Assembly (NCBI GenBank): GCA_030377945.1
Contig: JAUCGD010000186.1
Coordinates: 1 to 6,559 of the forward strand
Direction: 5' to 3'
DNA from: Desulfobacterales bacterium HSG17
GTDB lineage: Bacteria > Desulfobacterota > Desulfobacteria > Desulfobacterales > Desulfococcaceae
Length of the DNA stretch: 6,559 nt
The translations under genes and the position numbers were made by a program. Position 1 is the stretch's first letter; the number at the start of each line of letters is the position of its first letter. This document shows, piece after piece, positions 296 through 6,554 of the stretch. The notes beneath the pieces were generated by a model. It saw nothing but the letters and a program-made list of their open reading frames with translations. It did no database searches and was not told the origin of the DNA.

Positions 296-1771
296 ATGAA
301 ACGAAATTGTCATGCCGGGCGACAGCTTAGTTCGGGTCTGAGCCTTAACATCCTAACTGATGATGAACTTGAGGATATCCACTATGGAACCCTCGAAGTT
401 CTAAATGAAACAGGTGTTTTTGTTGAAGACGAGGATGCACTTGATTGTTTTGAACAGGGCGGGGCAGATGTCAACCGGGAAACAAAAATTGTTAAGATTC
501 CGCCGCATATAGTGGAAGATGCTGTGCGCAGTGCGCCTCCAAAGGTTGTTTTATACGGCCGTGACCCAAAGCACGATATTGTACTGGAAAATACACGAGT
601 TCACTTTACCAATTTCAGTGAAGGCGTTATGGTAAATGATCCGTATACAGGAGAACACAGGCCGCCTGTTAAACATGACCTGGTTGATTCTGCAAAAGTA
701 ATTGATTTTCTTCCTGAAATTGATTTTTGTGAAAAAGCCCTGGGTGCCCATGATGTGGCTCAGGAAACAGTACCCCTGCATAATGCCGAAGCTTATTTGA
801 CAAATACAACCAAGCATTGTGCTTTTGGTCCTGGTAACGGAAAATTCCTGAGAAAAATAATTGAGATGGGCCAAGTTATTGCCGGGGGCGTGAAAAAATT
901 CAGGCAAAGGCCCCTGGTTTCTTTTACAACCTGCCCTGTAAGCCCCCTTAAATTAATTTCAGACTGCTGTGAAATTATTATGGAAGCAGCCAGGAACAAT
1001 GTTGTCTGTAATATTCTTTCCATGGCAATGGCCGGTGGTACTGCTCCTGTAACTCTTGCAGGAACTCTTGTAAATCATAATGCCGAGGTGCTTTCCGGGA
1101 TTACCCTTTCACAGCTCACAAAAAAAGGGGCTCCTGTTATTTACGGGAGTTCAACAACTGCAATGGATTTGAAACTGGCATCTGCCAGTGTGGGCACACC
1201 TGAGTGTGCTGTAATCAGCGGTGCAGTTGCCCGGCTGGCCCGCTATTATGCCTTGCCCAGTTATGTGGCAGGCGGATAGAGCGACAGTAAAATATCCGAT
1301 ACCCAGACCGGCCATGAAAAGACATTAACCGGACTTATACCCGCATTGGCAGGTGCCAATATGATTTATGGTCCGGGGATGCTTGAAAGCGGCATCACCT
1401 TTGATTTTGGCCAGCTGGTTTTAGATTGTGAGTTTGTTCGTATGATTAAACATACCATCCAGGGAGTTCCTGTGAATGATGACACCCTTGCTATTGACCC
1501 TGTCAAGGAGATAGGGCCGGGCGGGAATTTCCTCATGCACAAACACACTTTCACATACATGAGACAACAATCTGCACCAGAATTGATTGACCGGAAAATG
1601 AGAGGTGCCTGGGAAAGTGCCGGTGCAGCCAGTGCTTTTGACAGGGCCATGGAAAAAGTCCGGTATATACTGGAAAACCATAAACCAGAGCCTCTATCCC
1701 AAGACGTGCTGGCAAAAATCCGTTCTATTGTTGAAGAAACTGAAAAAGAGATGGGGATTACCCCTAAATGA
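296..1771 (+). CDS. mttB: pyrrolysine-containing trimethylamine methyltransferase (MttB)
   Basis: This is an MttB-family methyltransferase of 491 residues if UAG at 1277-1279 is read as pyrrolysine at residue 328. Known MttB moves a methyl group from trimethylamine to a cognate corrinoid protein (MttC) in the cytoplasm. The whole length matches the family as I recall Methanosarcina MttB (about 495 residues): LTDDELEDIHYGTLEVL near residues 20-36, SMAMAGG and GTLVNHNAEVLSGI around 242-265, and YGSSTT before the active site. The amber codon sits between SYVAGG and SDSK, matching SYVAGS-Pyl-SDAK, and the same frame continues with GHEKTLTGLIPALAGANMIYG. The gene ends in TGA, with a second in-frame TGA two codons on. 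It starts a tight operon, 24 nt before the FAD enzyme. No corrinoid-protein gene is adjacent, so the exact substrate (trimethylamine or another methylated amine) is not proven. Without suppression a 327-residue fragment would result. Confidence 0.95.
1277..1279 (+). other. UAG codon recoded as pyrrolysine in mttB
   Basis: The in-frame TAG follows Gly-Gly and precedes Ser-Asp-Ser-Lys, at residue 328 counted from ATG 296 (334 from TTG 278). Sequence on both sides is unbroken MttB in one frame, with no frameshift. The position is that of pyrrolysine in characterised MttB, where Pyl is thought to bind and activate the methylamine. The window itself carries the matching suppressor tRNA at 6046-6118. 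A pseudogene or sequencing error is much less likely. Confidence 0.95.
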
Positions 1772-1795: not shown

Positions 1796-4261
1796 ATGGA
1801 AAATAAGAAGATAAACCTTCCATCCCAGGCAAATGTCGTCATCATCGGCGGTGGTATAATCGGTTGTTCACTAGCCTATCATCTCGGTCATATGGGGTGC
1901 AAAGACGTTGTGCTTTTGGAACGGGATGAACTGACATCAGGAACTACATGGCATGCAGCAGGCCTGATGGTAACATTTGGCTCATTATCCGAAACAGCAA
2001 CCCAGATGAGGCTTTACGGTCGTGATCTTTATAACAGCCTTGAGGCGGAAACAGGTTTGTCAACCGGGTTTATGCCGGTCGGATTTATTGAAGCAGCCAG
2101 CAATAAAGACCGGCTTGAGGAGTATCGCCGTGTAGCGGAATTTAACCGTTACTGCGGTGTAGATGTAAATGAAATTTCTCCTTCTGAGATAAAAAAATTA
2201 TTTCCCCTGGCAAAAGTGGATGATCTTCTGGCAGGTTTTTATATAAAAGAGGATGGAAGGGTAAATCCTGTTGACGGAACTATGGCCCTTGCCAAAGGCG
2301 CACGCAACCAGGGAGTACAAATTTTTGAGGGCGTATCTTCTAGTGGTGTAATAAAAAAGAACGGGGTTGTCACAGGTGTTAAAACAACAGCAGGTGATAT
2401 AAAGGCTGATGTAGTTGTCAATTGTGCAGGAATGTGGGCACGCCAGATCGGGGATGTGGACGGGGTTAATATTCCAAACCAGTCAACTGAGCACTATTAC
2501 CTTATTACAGAAGAGATAGACGGCATTCCCCAGAATATGCCGATTCTTGAAGATCCTTCTCACTACGGATATTACAGGGAAGAAGTCGGCGGTTTAATGA
2601 TCGGCTTGTTTGAGCCGGTCTGTGCACCCTGGAAACTGGATAAAGTTCCGGAAACATTTTCTTTTGGTGAGATTGAACCTGACTGGGACAGGATGGGCCC
2701 GTTCCTGGAAAAAGCCATGTCCCGTGTTCCTATTTCAGAGACACTTGGTGTTAAAAAATTCTTCTGCGGCCCGGAAAGCTTTACTGCTGATCTTTCTGCA
2801 ATTATCGGTGAAGCCCCGGAATTAAAAAATTATTTTGTATGCGCGGGTCTGAATTCAGTTGGCATTATTATGGGGCCCGGCCTGGGGCAGATGATGGCAA
2901 GATGGATTATTGAAGGAGATCCTGGATGCGATATTACAGGCTTTAATATTGACCGTCTCCACACTTACCAGAATAACTACGATTACCGAAAGCACAGAAC
3001 AGTTGAATCCCTTGGAAAAGTTTACAAATGCCACTATCCTTTCCAGTCCATGGAAACAGCAAGAGGTGCAAAAAAATCGGCCATATTTGACCGTTTAGCA
3101 GCCCAGGGCGCCTGTTTCAAGGATGTCAGCGGCTGGGAAGGAGCAGACTGGTTTGCCCCTGAAGGACAGGAACCCAGGATTGACAAGCATTCCTGGGCCA
3201 GGGAAGACTGGTTTGCAAACTGGGAAAGAGAGCATCGCGCAGCCAGGGAAAATGTTATCCTGATGGACATGTCTTTTATGTCAAAGTTCCTTGTCCAGGG
3301 CAGGGATGCAGGAAAGGTTCTCAATTACATCTCAGCCAATAATGTGGATGAAAAGATAAACCAGGTAACTTATACGCCCTGGCTGAATAAAAACGGCAAA
3401 CTTGAAGCAGACCTGACTGTTGCAAAACTTGAACATGAAAAATACCTTGTTGTGGTTACAGATACTATGCACCGTCATGCAGAGACATGGCTGAAAAGAA
3501 ATATCCCGGAGGATGCCCATACCTTTGTTACAGATGTTACTTCTGCCTATGCCCAGATCAATATCCAGGGGCCAAAATCCAGGGAGCTTTTGCAGTCAGT
3601 TACAACAGCCGACATGTCCAATAAAGCTTTTCCATACAGGCATGCAAGAGAGATTGCCATTGGTTACGGACGGGCTGTGTGCATGCGCCTGACTTACCTG
3701 GGAGAACTGGGTTATGAATTGTATATACCGACCGAACAGGCTGTTCATGTTTATGACACAATTGTCGAGGCCGGGAAGAATTTTAATCTTGTTCATGCAG
3801 GTCTCAAGGCTTTGGGCAGTTTGAGGATGGAAAAAGGCTACCGTGATTACGGACATGATATGGACAACACGGACGACCCCTATGAAACCGGTCTTGGATT
3901 TACAGTTAAACTGGACAAGCCAGGCGGTTTTATCGGCAGGGAAGCCTGTATTAAAAAGAAAGAAGAGGGCCCTTTAAAAAGACGTCTGGCCCAGGTTTTA
4001 GTTAAGGACCCTGAACAATTATTATTCCATGCCGAGGTGATAACCCGTAACAGCAAAAACGCAGGCTATGTAAGATCAGGCTCATACTGCTATACCCTGG
4101 GTGGAGCAGTCGGTTTATTTATGATTGAAGCTGATGAACCTGTGGATGAAGCATATCTAACCAAAGGAGAATGGCAGATAAATATCGCAGGCAAAACATA
4201 TGCTGCCGAGGTTTCATTAAAACCCATGTATGATCCTGATATGAAAAGAATAAAAGTTTGA
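1796..4261 (+). CDS. FAD-dependent dimethylglycine/sarcosine dehydrogenase-like protein with GcvT domain
   Basis: This 821-residue protein has the architecture of dimethylglycine and sarcosine dehydrogenases (about 850 residues in mammals). An N-terminal DAO-type FAD domain carries G18-x-G20-x-x-G23 and the ribose-binding acidic residue E42. The SGTTWHAAGL segment holds H53, aligned with the histidine that binds FAD covalently in mammalian relatives. A linking FAO-type middle domain lies at about 385-440, and a GcvT-like aminomethyltransferase domain runs from about 483 to the end, with ADLTV near 539 and LRMEKGYRDYGHD near 680. Family members oxidise an N-methyl group, hand the carbon to tetrahydrofolate as 5,10-methylene-THF, and pass electrons to ETF. 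The etfB and etfA genes follow 15 nt downstream, which fits. No signal peptide is seen, so it is probably cytoplasmic. Start ATG 1796 has AGAGGAA 5 nt upstream. Whether it uses dimethylglycine, sarcosine, dimethylamine or another amine cannot be read from sequence. Confidence 0.85.
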   Translation: MENKKINLPSQANVVIIGGGIIGCSLAYHLGHMGCKDVVLLERDELTSGTTWHAAGLMVTFGSLSETATQMRLYGRDLYNSLEAETGLSTGFMPVGFIEAASNKDRLEEYRRVAEFNRYCGVDVNEISPSEIKKLFPLAKVDDLLAGFYIKEDGRVNPVDGTMALAKGARNQGVQIFEGVSSSGVIKKNGVVTGVKTTAGDIKADVVVNCAGMWARQIGDVDGVNIPNQSTEHYYLITEEIDGIPQNMPILEDPSHYGYYREEVGGLMIGLFEPVCAPWKLDKVPETFSFGEIEPDWDRMGPFLEKAMSRVPISETLGVKKFFCGPESFTADLSAIIGEAPELKNYFVCAGLNSVGIIMGPGLGQMMARWIIEGDPGCDITGFNIDRLHTYQNNYDYRKHRTVESLGKVYKCHYPFQSMETARGAKKSAIFDRLAAQGACFKDVSGWEGADWFAPEGQEPRIDKHSWAREDWFANWEREHRAARENVILMDMSFMSKFLVQGRDAGKVLNYISANNVDEKINQVTYTPWLNKNGKLEADLTVAKLEHEKYLVVVTDTMHRHAETWLKRNIPEDAHTFVTDVTSAYAQINIQGPKSRELLQSVTTADMSNKAFPYRHAREIAIGYGRAVCMRLTYLGELGYELYIPTEQAVHVYDTIVEAGKNFNLVHAGLKALGSLRMEKGYRDYGHDMDNTDDPYETGLGFTVKLDKPGGFIGREACIKKKEEGPLKRRLAQVLVKDPEQLLFHAEVITRNSKNAGYVRSGSYCYTLGGAVGLFMIEADEPVDEAYLTKGEWQINIAGKTYAAEVSLKPMYDPDMKRIKV

Positions 4262-4276
4262 AAAACAAGGAAGAAC

Positions 4277-5047
4277 ATGAAAATATTTGTATGCGTAAAG
4301 CATGTACCTGACACGGCAGCCAGCATAAAAGTTGACGGGCAAGCAGGATATAATAGCGAAGATATTGTATTTATCATAAATCCCTATGATGAATATGCAA
4401 TTGAGGAAGCTGTCAGTATTGTTGAAAAAGAGGGTGGAGAGGTTGTAATCATTACCCTGGGTAAACCAGATGCAGTTACTTCCATAAGAACAGCCCTGGC
4501 AATGGGGGCAGACCGGGCCATACTGATTAAAACAGATGAACAATTCCCGGACAGCAGTATGACTGCCAGGGTTATTGCGGCTGCCATTGAACAGGACGGT
4601 TTGCCGGACATTATTTTTTGCGGAAAAGGTTCGGTTGATTCGGAAAGTTTCCAGACACAATACCGCCTGGCAGAAAACCTTGTCATGCCCGTTATTAATG
4701 ATGTGTCCACTTTAACACTTGATACTGGTAAAATTACAGCTCAAAGGGATATTGGAAGCAGCGGGAAACAGGTCATTGAAATGAAATTGCCCGGTGTAAT
4801 CGGTGCTGCAAAAGGATTGAACGAGCCCCGATACCCGACTGTAATGAATGTGATGAAAGCCAAGAAGAAAAAAATCAATGAAATTGAAATCTCCGATCTT
4901 GGGATAGACCCGAAACAAAACCGGGTAATAATGGAAAAACTTGAATCTGCCCCGGAGCGTGCCAATGCCGAGATAATCCAGGGATCAGTGGACAACCAGG
5001 TAACTGAGCTTATCAGGATACTGAGAGAAGACAAAAAGGTGATATAA
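4277..5047 (+). CDS. etfB: electron transfer flavoprotein, beta subunit
   Basis: The 256-residue product has the normal length and motifs of EtfB/FixA. MKIFVCVKHVPD at the N-terminus, NPYDEYAIEEA at about 35-45, and the family signature at about 156-198 (QRDIGSSGKQVIEMKLPGV, then LNEPRYPTVM and KAKKKK) are all present. EtfB pairs with EtfA to form a soluble cytoplasmic one-electron carrier, taking electrons from flavin dehydrogenases. Here the preceding dimethylglycine dehydrogenase-like enzyme is the obvious donor. The nucleotide-binding loop CGKGSVDSES (115-124) is unlike the usual GKQAxDxD form, so whether the beta subunit binds AMP (classical) or FAD (bifurcating) cannot be told. ATG 4277 is preceded by AAGGA with a 5-nt spacer. 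The TAA stop overlaps the Shine-Dalgarno of etfA. Confidence 0.95.
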   Translation: MKIFVCVKHVPDTAASIKVDGQAGYNSEDIVFIINPYDEYAIEEAVSIVEKEGGEVVIITLGKPDAVTSIRTALAMGADRAILIKTDEQFPDSSMTARVIAAAIEQDGLPDIIFCGKGSVDSESFQTQYRLAENLVMPVINDVSTLTLDTGKITAQRDIGSSGKQVIEMKLPGVIGAAKGLNEPRYPTVMNVMKAKKKKINEIEISDLGIDPKQNRVIMEKLESAPERANAEIIQGSVDNQVTELIRILREDKKVI

Positions 5048-5051
5048 GGAG
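5045..5051 (+). promoter_or_regulatory. etfA Shine-Dalgarno overlapping the etfB stop
   Basis: TAAGGAG contains the TAA stop of etfB and the AAGGAG ribosome site of etfA, so ribosomes ending on etfB sit on the next start. The spacing, 3 nt to ATG 5055 and 9 nt to ATG 5061, favours the second start slightly. Confidence 0.6.
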
Positions 5052-5054
5052 AAA

Positions 5055-6008
5055 ATGGGTATGCCTAAAACCGGAATATTAATAGAAACTGAAAATAACC
5101 GGGTCAAAGAAGCTTCCCTGGGAGCCATGACCGCTGCTGCCGGGAGTGAAATTTATGCATTCATATTGGAAGGAGATGCAGGTGCTGTTGCGGATAAACT
5201 AGCTGAGTACGGTGCTGCCCGAATTATTATAGTTGCTCCAAAGGATGATTTGTCAAAAAATCCTGATCTCCAGGCAAAAGCTTTATCCCAGGCTGTAAAA
5301 GAGTATGAACTTGATGCCTTTTTAGGGTCGGCCAGTCCTGTGGGACAGGATATGTTTGCAAGGATGGGCGCAATCCTGGATGTTCCCCTTGTATCTGATA
5401 GTATCAAAATAGATATTGAGGAAAAAACAGCTGTAAAATCACATTTTTCAGGCAAAACCTTTGCTAGTATGAAAGTGGCAGCATCACCGTTTTTGTGTAC
5501 AATCCGCCCAAATTCAATAGAGCCTGTTCCGGCCAAAGCAAAAGAAGACAATGCAGAAGTTGAAATTATTGAATTTAATTTTGAACACGGGAATGGCGGT
5601 CAGGTAACAATTATTGAAACTGTAAAGGATGATAAAGGTAAAATAGATCTGGCAGAAGCATCTATCATTATTTCCGGTGGCCGAGCTATGGAGTCTGCTG
5701 AAAACTTTTCCATACTTAAAGAGTGTGCTGAAAAACTGGGCGCTGCTGTGGGCGCTTCAAGAGCTGCTGTTGATTCAGGTTATGCTCCCCACACCATGCA
5801 GGTAGGGCAGACAGGAAAAACCGTTAGCCCAAAACTCTATATTGCCTGCGGCATTTCAGGAGCTGTACAGCATTTTGCAGGAATGAAAACCTCGGAAATA
5901 ATCGTGGCAGTTAACAAGGATAAAGATGCCCCGATTTTTTCCAAATGCGATTATGGAATTGTTGGAGATGTTTTTGAAATTATACCTTTATTGACAAACA
6001 AATTATAA
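5055..6008 (+). CDS. etfA: electron transfer flavoprotein, alpha subunit
   Basis: The 317-residue product is a full-length EtfA. The C-terminal FAD-binding domain is clear: SGGRAM (207-212), [11 protein letters not shown] (233-243), [20 protein letters not shown] (250-269), QHFAGM (272-277) and [11 protein letters not shown] (285-295), then DYGIVGD. The N-terminal domain up to about 190 is the usual Rossmann-like half that contacts EtfB. The heterodimer would carry electrons from the FAD enzyme towards an ETF:quinone oxidoreductase, which is not in the window. AAGGAG (5046-5051) is only 3 nt before ATG 5055 but 9 nt before a second in-frame ATG at 5061 (MPKTGIL), so translation may start at either. 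The gene begins 7 nt after etfB, typical of translational coupling. Confidence 0.96.
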
Positions 6009-6045: not shown

Positions 6046-6118
6046 GGAGGGTGGATCGGACGGGATCACACGGACTCTAAATCCGTGCAGCCGGGTGCAA
6101 CTCCCGGACTCTCCGCCA
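6046..6118 (+). tRNA. pylT: tRNA-Pyl, anticodon CUA
   Basis: The gene folds as a 73-nt tRNA with encoded CCA. The acceptor stem is GGAGGGT (6046-6052) with ACTCTCC (6108-6114), including one G-T wobble; the discriminator is G6115 and CCA is 6116-6118. Features special to tRNA-Pyl are present: a single base between acceptor and D stems, a 4-bp D stem (GATC/GATC) with a small 6-nt loop lacking the usual conserved D-loop sequence, one base before the anticodon stem, a 6-bp anticodon stem (CACGGA/TCCGTG), loop CTCTAAA with anticodon CTA at 6077-6079, a 3-nt variable loop, and a perfect 5-bp T stem with loop TGCAACT. It closely resembles the bacterial tRNA-Pyl of Desulfitobacterium as I recall it. 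It decodes UAG, matching the amber codon in mttB. Confidence 0.97.
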
Positions 6119-6185: not shown

Positions 6186-6554
6186 ATGGCAGATGGAACA
6201 TCAAAAGTTAAATCCGTAAAAAAACGGTACTACCGAAAACGTGTACGGCTTTTTAAACTGGTTGAAAAAATCAAGCTGTGGCCTTCCAGGACAGGACAGC
6301 TGCACGGAATCCGGTCAATAAATATTTTGGGTGAAACAGCTGTGTTAACCACACATTGCAACAAAGAGTTTATTACCGGAAATTCCCTGAACAGCCGTGC
6401 AGCAAGGTGGCTTAGAAACAAATGGTTTGTCAGGGTGTGCCCCAAATGCGGGATACCGGAGTGGAAACTTGAAAAATATGCATCAACTTTGTTTAAACGC
6501 CATTACGGCTCTGGTTTAACATTATTAAAAAACAAAGATATAGATATAGATTAA
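6186..6554 (+). CDS. pylSn: pyrrolysyl-tRNA synthetase N-terminal domain protein (PylSn)
   Basis: This 122-residue protein matches the tRNA-binding N-terminal domain of pyrrolysyl-tRNA synthetase, which bacteria encode apart from the catalytic PylSc. LWPSRTGQLHGI (31-42) aligns with LWMSRTGTLHKI of the methanosarcinal enzyme, so H40 matches its zinc-ligand histidine. SLNSRAARWLRNKW (67-80) aligns with the SRTARAxRHHKY segment. C85-P-K-C88 matches CKRC, the cysteine part of the zinc site. PylSn grips the unusual core of tRNA-Pyl and aids charging by PylSc. Residues 6-24 are very basic (KVKSVKKRYYRKRVRLFK), an extension ahead of the conserved start that may add RNA contacts. A TGA directly before ATG 6186 fixes this as the earliest start. 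CAGGA at 6555-6559 may be the ribosome site of the next gene, plausibly pylSc. Confidence 0.93.
   Translation: MADGTSKVKSVKKRYYRKRVRLFKLVEKIKLWPSRTGQLHGIRSINILGETAVLTTHCNKEFITGNSLNSRAARWLRNKWFVRVCPKCGIPEWKLEKYASTLFKRHYGSGLTLLKNKDIDID

Follow-up and report, generated by a model that had tools for sequence, protein, structure and literature searches.

The need for an mRNA signal in the decoding of UAG as pyrrolysine (Pyl) has been debated since the mid-2000s, and in bacteria UAG is also an ordinary stop. Both matters meet in a 6,559-nt stretch of DNA from Desulfobacterales bacterium HSG17 (the window, a term used here for the whole stretch analysed), in which mttB, the gene for a trimethylamine (TMA):corrinoid methyltransferase, is crossed by an in-frame UAG: is this codon read as Pyl, and does the mRNA carry an element that belongs to it? 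We propose, with a probability of roughly 85%, that a Pyl codon and a selected hairpin occur together in this bacterial mttB mRNA (Table 1). The Pyl codon was to be expected; a downstream hairpin tied to the UAG-bearing copies of the gene was less so.

Table 1. Features of the window discussed in the text, with the evidence for each.
Feature	Position	Strand	Evidence
mttB, trimethylamine:corrinoid methyltransferase	296..1771	+	491 codons with UAG as Pyl; TIGR02369; PF06253, 318.5 bits; PDB 7xcm, E 1.4e-128
In-frame UAG, codon 328, pyrrolysine	1277..1279	+	Frame, profile, structure alignment, relatives
Rfam RF02510 PYLIS_3 (mttB) match	1277..1376	+	79.4 bits, gathering threshold 38
Outer 7-bp stem, 5' side	1329..1335	+	Single-sequence fold; clade conservation
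mRNA hairpin ATTGGC-AGGT-GCCAAT (arms 1345-1350 and 1355-1360, loop 1351-1354)	1345..1360	+	Counts, covariation
Outer 7-bp stem, 3' side	1370..1376	+	Single-sequence fold; clade conservation
FAD oxidoreductase fused to GcvT domains, dimethylglycine dehydrogenase (DMGDH)-like	1796..4261	+	PF01266, PF16350, PF01571, PF08669; PDB 5l46, E 1.1e-119
etfB, electron transfer flavoprotein beta subunit	4277..5047	+	PF01012, 118 bits
etfA, electron transfer flavoprotein alpha subunit	5055..6008	+	PF00766, 123.4 bits; PF01012, 86.4 bits
tRNA-Pyl (pylT), anticodon CUA	6046..6118	+	ARAGORN; fold
pylSn, N-terminal subunit of pyrrolysyl-tRNA synthetase	6186..6554	+	TIGR03912, 128.6 bits, cut-off 51.15

The mttB frame runs from ATG 296 to TGA 1769-1771 and gives 491 residues when UAG 1277-1279 is read through, the translation bearing SYVAGG before the codon and SDSK after it. 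The joined protein scores 750.3 bits against TIGR02369, the equivalog profile of Pyl-containing TMA methyltransferases, and thereby passes the curated cut-off of 525, which supports the view of the sequence-only reading that both sides of the UAG belong to one MttB in one frame. In profile searches, the N-terminal piece covers TIGR02369 positions 1-313 (487 bits) and the C-terminal piece alone positions 315-469 (242.6 bits), so that the sole profile position missing is the Pyl column. That reading had also called the C-terminal piece unrelated-looking, which is not how it appears to a profile search, and had predicted a 327-residue 5' gene, a length that holds from ATG 296 and becomes 333 aa from the first mechanical start, TTG 278. 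MttB aligns nearly end to end with PDB entries 7xcl and 7xcm, both named trimethylamine methyltransferase, and their Pyl column holds an unknown residue X in 7xcl and K in 7xcm; we take X to be Pyl and the source of both structures to be M. barkeri MttB. The profile column and the structure alignment thus agree with the earlier placement of the UAG at the exact catalytic Pyl position.

The machinery and the relatives point the same way. The Pyl machinery was assessed within the window, where pylSn and a tRNA-Pyl with a 6-bp anticodon stem, a 3-base variable loop and one base separating the acceptor stem from the D stem are present, pylSc, pylB, pylC and pylD lying outside it. Scanning the GTDB species genomes yielded 62 mttB loci, the best being 84-89% identical and titled mostly Desulfobacteraceae, Desulfobacula, Desulfotignum and kin; the best match has TAG at the Pyl column in 61 of the 62 genome loci, the exception (L059) having ATG and being 42% identical. 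The UAG at 1277-1279 is, to judge from profile, structure column, tRNA-Pyl, pylSn and relatives, almost certainly a Pyl codon. Sense-codon homologs, which together with a lack of Pyl machinery in the genome had been named in advance as evidence against Pyl, do exist (the closest at 54% identity); tRNA-Pyl and pylSn lie in the window itself. At five loci, L126, L133, L154, L155 and L269, which are 44-54% identical to the window MttB, the column holds His, Val or Leu; all are without the full hairpin described below, and they are natural Pyl-free cousins of MttB. No mttB homolog was found in the viral contigs searched, and plasmid homologs (195 records) were all below 60% identity, the best among 15 matches listed reaching 34%.

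A Pyl codon in mttB is of a known kind and has already been described for Deltaproteobacteria. Window and Pyl-dependent MttB (TIGR02369; PDB 7xcl) have the family, the Pyl column, SYVAG before and SD after it and the full length in common, whereas in the window the synthetase gene is split (pylSn), and a DMGDH-like gene plus etfBA separate mttB from pylT. A deltaproteobacterial mttB with nearby pyl genes has been reported with Pyl at residue 327 of 485, compared with 328 of 491 in the window, where pyl genes are likewise near (PMC8318568; Kivenson et al., 2021); the accessible portions of that text hold passages on selenocysteine and none on an mRNA element for Pyl.

Downstream of the UAG, the mttB mRNA can fold into a hairpin with a perfect 6-bp stem that is separated from the UAG by 65 nt, its first base lying 68 nt after the T of UAG. 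Copies of the gene were collected by searching TIGR02369 in nine genomes of the loci, 291 genomes from the class of the Desulfospira joergensenii locus genome (G001) and 299 from the phylum of the 'Candidatus Formimonas warabiya' locus genome (G003), presumably Firmicutes. Removal of rows identical over codons 300-420 reduced 321 copies to 273, comprising 177 with TAG and 96 with another codon at the column; near-identical rows were retained, save in thinned sets, and the UAG set is incomplete, as the genomes are drawn samples, at most five matches were scored per genome and most short UAG fragments were left out. All six pairs form in 124 of the 177 UAG copies and in 1 of the 96 sense copies, 68 of which are less than 38% identical and poorly aligned at the Pyl column, the fairer controls being the 28 closest sense copies and those coding exactly ALAGAN. 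Among the 28, the full hairpin is found in none, and among the copies with ALAGAN it is found in 115 of 141 with UAG versus 0 of 14 with a sense codon. Under a null in which each copy's amino acids are fixed and its codons drawn from its own usage, copies being treated as independent and shared ancestry ignored, 6.4 full hairpins are expected in the UAG copies, where the largest of 400 draws gave 15, and 1.2 in the sense copies. When the same geometry was placed at 1,285 offsets, the next best reached 40/175.

Among the UAG copies, the full hairpin is present in 43/43 at 70% identity to the window or above, 34/40 at 56-70%, 22/55 at 50-56% and 25/39 below 50%. The hairpin was first noticed on loci that belong to the counted set; in the later samples alone it is complete in 53/68 UAG copies from the class of G001 and 23/44 from the phylum of G003. 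It is incomplete in 53 of the 177 UAG copies, 21 of the 44 from the latter sample included, and hence is not essential. An outer 7-bp stem around it, whose pairs are formed in 37 to 43 of the 43 copies of at least 70% identity and several of which are unformed in more distant groups, was rejected as a general feature, being conserved in the window's clade only.

The loop reads AGGT, AGGC, AGGG or AGGA in 122 of the 124 full hairpins, and Ala352 is encoded by GCA, which places A at the unpaired loop base 352.3, in 140 of 161 UAG copies (34.8 expected) and in 8 of 37 sense copies (8.6 expected). This base bears on the best-surviving alternative, in which the hairpin would be an mRNA stability or polarity element: ribosomes that stop at the UAG for lack of Pyl would leave the 3' part of mttB bare, and the fold of this RNA would guard it from Rho or nucleases, or hand it to them, so that the hairpin would sense decoding without stimulating it. 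A terminating ribosome would not cover RNA 65 nt further on, the window has other genes and tRNA-Pyl 3' of mttB on the same strand, and the association of the full hairpin with UAG copies fits as well; a stability element alone, however, does not predict that base 352.3 is kept as A, and we consider this alternative rather unlikely. An internal restart at ATG 1361-1363, with the AGGT loop as ribosome-binding site, was also considered and rejected as the hairpin's general role, the codon not being ATG in many other UAG copies.

That the dyad is read as RNA is indicated by its covariation. The outer pair, 350.3/355.3, joins two third codon positions and in the 177 UAG copies is A-U in 72, G-C in 65, G-U in 7 and A-C in 4, the rest being other mismatches, whereas sense copies have A-U 8, A-C 9, G-C 10 and G-U 7. 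Pair 4 (351.3/354.3) is G-C in 133 of the 177 UAG copies, A-U in 16, G-U in 12 and A-C in 3, and pair 2, in which the Asn codon leaves the A no freedom to vary, is U-A in 143 and mismatched as C-A in 25. In an unbiased covariation scan (142 thinned rows, 258 nt), the top rank goes to 350.3-355.3 (z 20.4); 351.3-354.3 comes sixth (z 11.0, 92% canonical), and the second-ranked pair, at z 13.7, is only 28% canonical. On a FastTree phylogeny of 217 rows, built without the columns of the hairpin region, 350.3 and 355.3 give 17 independent pairs, 13.4 of them concordant and 0.2 opposed (median p 0.00024), while the lowest p among 154 control pairs is 0.0625. Pair 4 gives 10 independent pairs (6.5 same versus 0.8 opposite, p 0.07), and UAG against hairpin only 4 (3.6 same, 0 opposite, p 0.125), the hairpin changing at least 21 times on the tree and UAG 5 times. 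Over 104 diverse sequences, 85.6% of the hairpin's cells are paired, compared with 51.0% at best when it is slid, and 49 cells are double-changed versus 17.2 in shuffled data (0/500 as high); pairs with a change on both sides number three in the same sequences, which is not above shuffles (143/500 reach it). RNAalifold recovers the whole hairpin from the copies of at least 70% identity and five of its pairs from those at 56-70%, but predicts nothing for the 104-row alignment, the pooled UAG copies or the most distant group. With RNAalifold against it, the hairpin shows the conserved, covarying structure on the 3' side of the UAG that is expected of a PYLIS in the functional sense, a cis RNA element that aids Pyl decoding.

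These pairs, and the location of the dyad, also bear on the reading of the sequence as a DNA operator or other DNA-level site within the gene, to which we give very little weight. It is a perfect inverted repeat, as such a site might be, but the loci (1.57 Mb) contain 146 RTTGGC-N4-GCCAAY sites, of which 143 sit 65 nt after a TAG, and the other three are a site after masked sequence (L047), one at a locus edge within an apparently truncated mttB (L086) and one elsewhere (L117). The dyad is also absent from the 14 sense copies with the same peptide, and G-U is commoner than A-C where the pairs are free to vary, as at pairs 1 and 4 and at pair 5, which in UAG copies has GT 5, TG 4 and no AC; pair 2, with its C-A mismatches, goes the other way.

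Synonymous positions downstream of the UAG are themselves constrained. In relatives above 83% identity for which both are estimable, synonymous divergence is lower after the UAG than before it (0.96 versus 2.44 for the Desulfospira joergensenii locus, L002). The codon-identity profile of 29 sequences (same-residue pairs) lies at 0.45-0.62 in windows before codon 311, rises mainly over codons 331-380 and peaks at 0.80 over codons 341-370, a height reached in 0/500 permutations; a smaller rise, to 0.72, is found at codons 401-420, and the profile of the adjacent DMGDH-like gene is without such a peak. It was in the codon alignment that the hairpin first stood out, at the centre of a block. At the hairpin, the codon-identity excess in three identity groups of UAG copies is +0.59, +0.35 and +0.12, against baselines of 0.10, 0.05 and 0.03, and the 28 close sense copies have none (+0.03 versus 0.03); in the most distant UAG group, constraint is equally strong in the codons immediately 5' of the UAG (+0.13, versus +0.12 at the hairpin). 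Codons 321-336 (approximately 1256-1303), around the UAG, are above baseline in all three UAG groups, and sense copies have a smaller conservation rise at codons 329-336. A second, weaker constraint at codons 397-416 (approximately 1484-1543; +0.19 to +0.26 versus 0.10) is clearest in the window's clade.

Such a signal might also come from codon choice or from protein folding during translation, without RNA structure, given that the region encodes the well conserved ALAGAN stretch. The close sense copies are unconstrained there, however, sense copies with the same peptide are without the full hairpin, bases covary pairwise across the dyad, and a like hairpin is found in mtbB over a different peptide, so that we regard this explanation as highly improbable. 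As for the coding sequence itself, the UAG is the sole stop within the aligned part in the 48 relatives compared (at least 58% identity), and dN/dS downstream of it is 0.07-0.26 where estimable in relatives of that identity. UAG is a stop codon for release factor 1, and some truncated product is expected without Pyl; but the codon is kept at its column among the relatives, selection downstream is purifying and pyl genes lie in the same window. That the UAG is instead a working stop or a decayed codon, whether through truncation of MttB, loss of the gene to a pseudogene or an error in sequencing, may thus practically be discounted. From these sequence comparisons, the mttB hairpin is very probably a real, conserved RNA hairpin, and we infer that it is an RNA under selection in the UAG-bearing bacterial copies of mttB.

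The region is not new to Rfam, as RF02510 (PYLIS_3) matches it, yet this model draws other pairs and not the mttB hairpin, which is not formed in the Rfam consensus letters either. Only five of the eight drawn PYLIS_3 pairs form in the window, three of the eight are formed in fewer than 120 of the 177 UAG copies, and in these copies the eight are paired to 71% on average versus 90% for the hairpin's six; the PYLIS_3 structure was therefore set aside as an account of the region, being only partly supported. In mtbB, which belongs to a different family and was found in 25 of 30 genomes searched, each match over the cut-off has one TAG, and a synonymous peak of its own lies 20-33 codons after the UAG. 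Here a hairpin of 6 bp with a 4-nt loop, 71 nt from the UAG (first base 74 nt after the T of UAG), has all its pairs in 42 of the 48 distinct copies, compared with 7.5 expected and at most 16 in any of 1,000 draws, and its outer third-position pair is TA, TG, AT, CG, GT or GC in 46 of 48. Tree tests of the mtbB pairs, with at most five independent pairs each, gave none that was significant and none that goes the opposite way. Its 4-nt loop is shared with the mttB hairpin, but it reads AGAN (AGAU in 45/48) rather than AGGN, and gene and stem sequence differ. The loop of the second hairpin of Rfam RF02509 (PYLIS_2, mtbB; model positions 81-84) coincides with the loop counted here; the mtbB hairpin is thus already drawn in PYLIS_2, whereas the mttB hairpin is undrawn in Rfam's mttB model. 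In mtmB with UAG (L311-L316, L329, L330 and L339-L341), a hairpin with an AGGU loop starts 109 nt after the T of UAG. Its six inner pairs are complete in 7 of the 11 distinct UAG copies, a smaller set having given 7 of 9, and in 0 of 29 sense copies, which are 27-37% identical, and one pair has a C-G/T-A exchange; the copies are too few and too related, and the mtmB hairpin is kept only as a lead.

How the codon would be decoded can be outlined from established pathway knowledge. PylSn and PylSc would charge tRNA-Pyl(CUA), the charged tRNA would compete with release factor 1 for the mttB UAG, and the Pyl placed at residue 328 would present TMA to a corrinoid protein. The hairpin may be a bacterial PYLIS-type cis element that favours full-length product, either at the UAG itself or through the fate of the mRNA after a stop there. 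A role in UAG decoding or its consequences is slightly favoured in our judgement, while direct stimulation of Pyl insertion by the hairpin can be suggested only tentatively. With the UAG in the A site, the ribosome's footprint does not reach a hairpin 65 nt further on, so that a simple roadblock beside the decoding site fits poorly; the hairpin may act over a longer range or through a factor, or come into play after a ribosome has stopped at the UAG. A further, speculative step, which we would not bet on at even odds, is that the mRNAs of bacterial Pyl methyltransferases have a true recoding element in common. It would consist of a 6-bp stem closed by an AGRN tetraloop, placed 65-71 nt 3' of the UAG in mttB and mtbB and perhaps further on in mtmB, and would mark the UAG as Pyl rather than stop, possibly via a trans-acting factor that reads the loop.

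A comparable arrangement is known from the bacterial SECIS, likewise a hairpin 3' of a recoded stop codon, although it serves selenocysteine at UGA, lies close to this codon and binds SelB; neither of the window's two Rfam matches is a SECIS. A shared element, if true, would run counter to current opinion, which holds that Pyl can do without a cis signal. As far as their accessible text goes, reviews state that PYLIS is not required and is poorly conserved, citing experiments in which no cis element was needed, among them tests on archaeal mtmB and in E. coli (PMC2933860; PMC8211752; PMC9499178), and one of them notes that replacement of the archaeal mtmB PYLIS lowered the full-length product (PMC2933860). 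The portions available of two further papers hold nothing on such a Pyl hairpin element (PMC7593587; PMC11467909), and in literature searches, for which most subscription papers were beyond reach, no title or opening abstract among the papers listed described the mttB hairpin. Because the hairpin of bacterial mttB is small, covarying and specific to the gene, synonymous mutants can put the question of a signal directly to the test, and it could help to find Pyl genes that gene callers split.

Two minor observations concern the neighbourhood. An Rfam match to sR35 at 5196-5250 scores 22.1 bits, far under the cut-off of 60, and is probably due to chance. The interval from mttB to pylT (1796-6008) is occupied by the DMGDH-like FAD/GcvT fusion and etfBA. 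Over the 62 loci, many of which end early, a DMGDH-like gene lies 3' of mttB in 23, etfB being present in 7 and tRNA-Pyl in 11 of these, and it is absent despite long downstream sequence at, for example, L022, L023 and L027-L032. Among the papers accessible, none pairs 'pyrrolysine' with 'dimethylglycine dehydrogenase'; the fusion and etfBA could possibly provide a route that oxidises dimethylamine or dimethylglycine after the MttB step.
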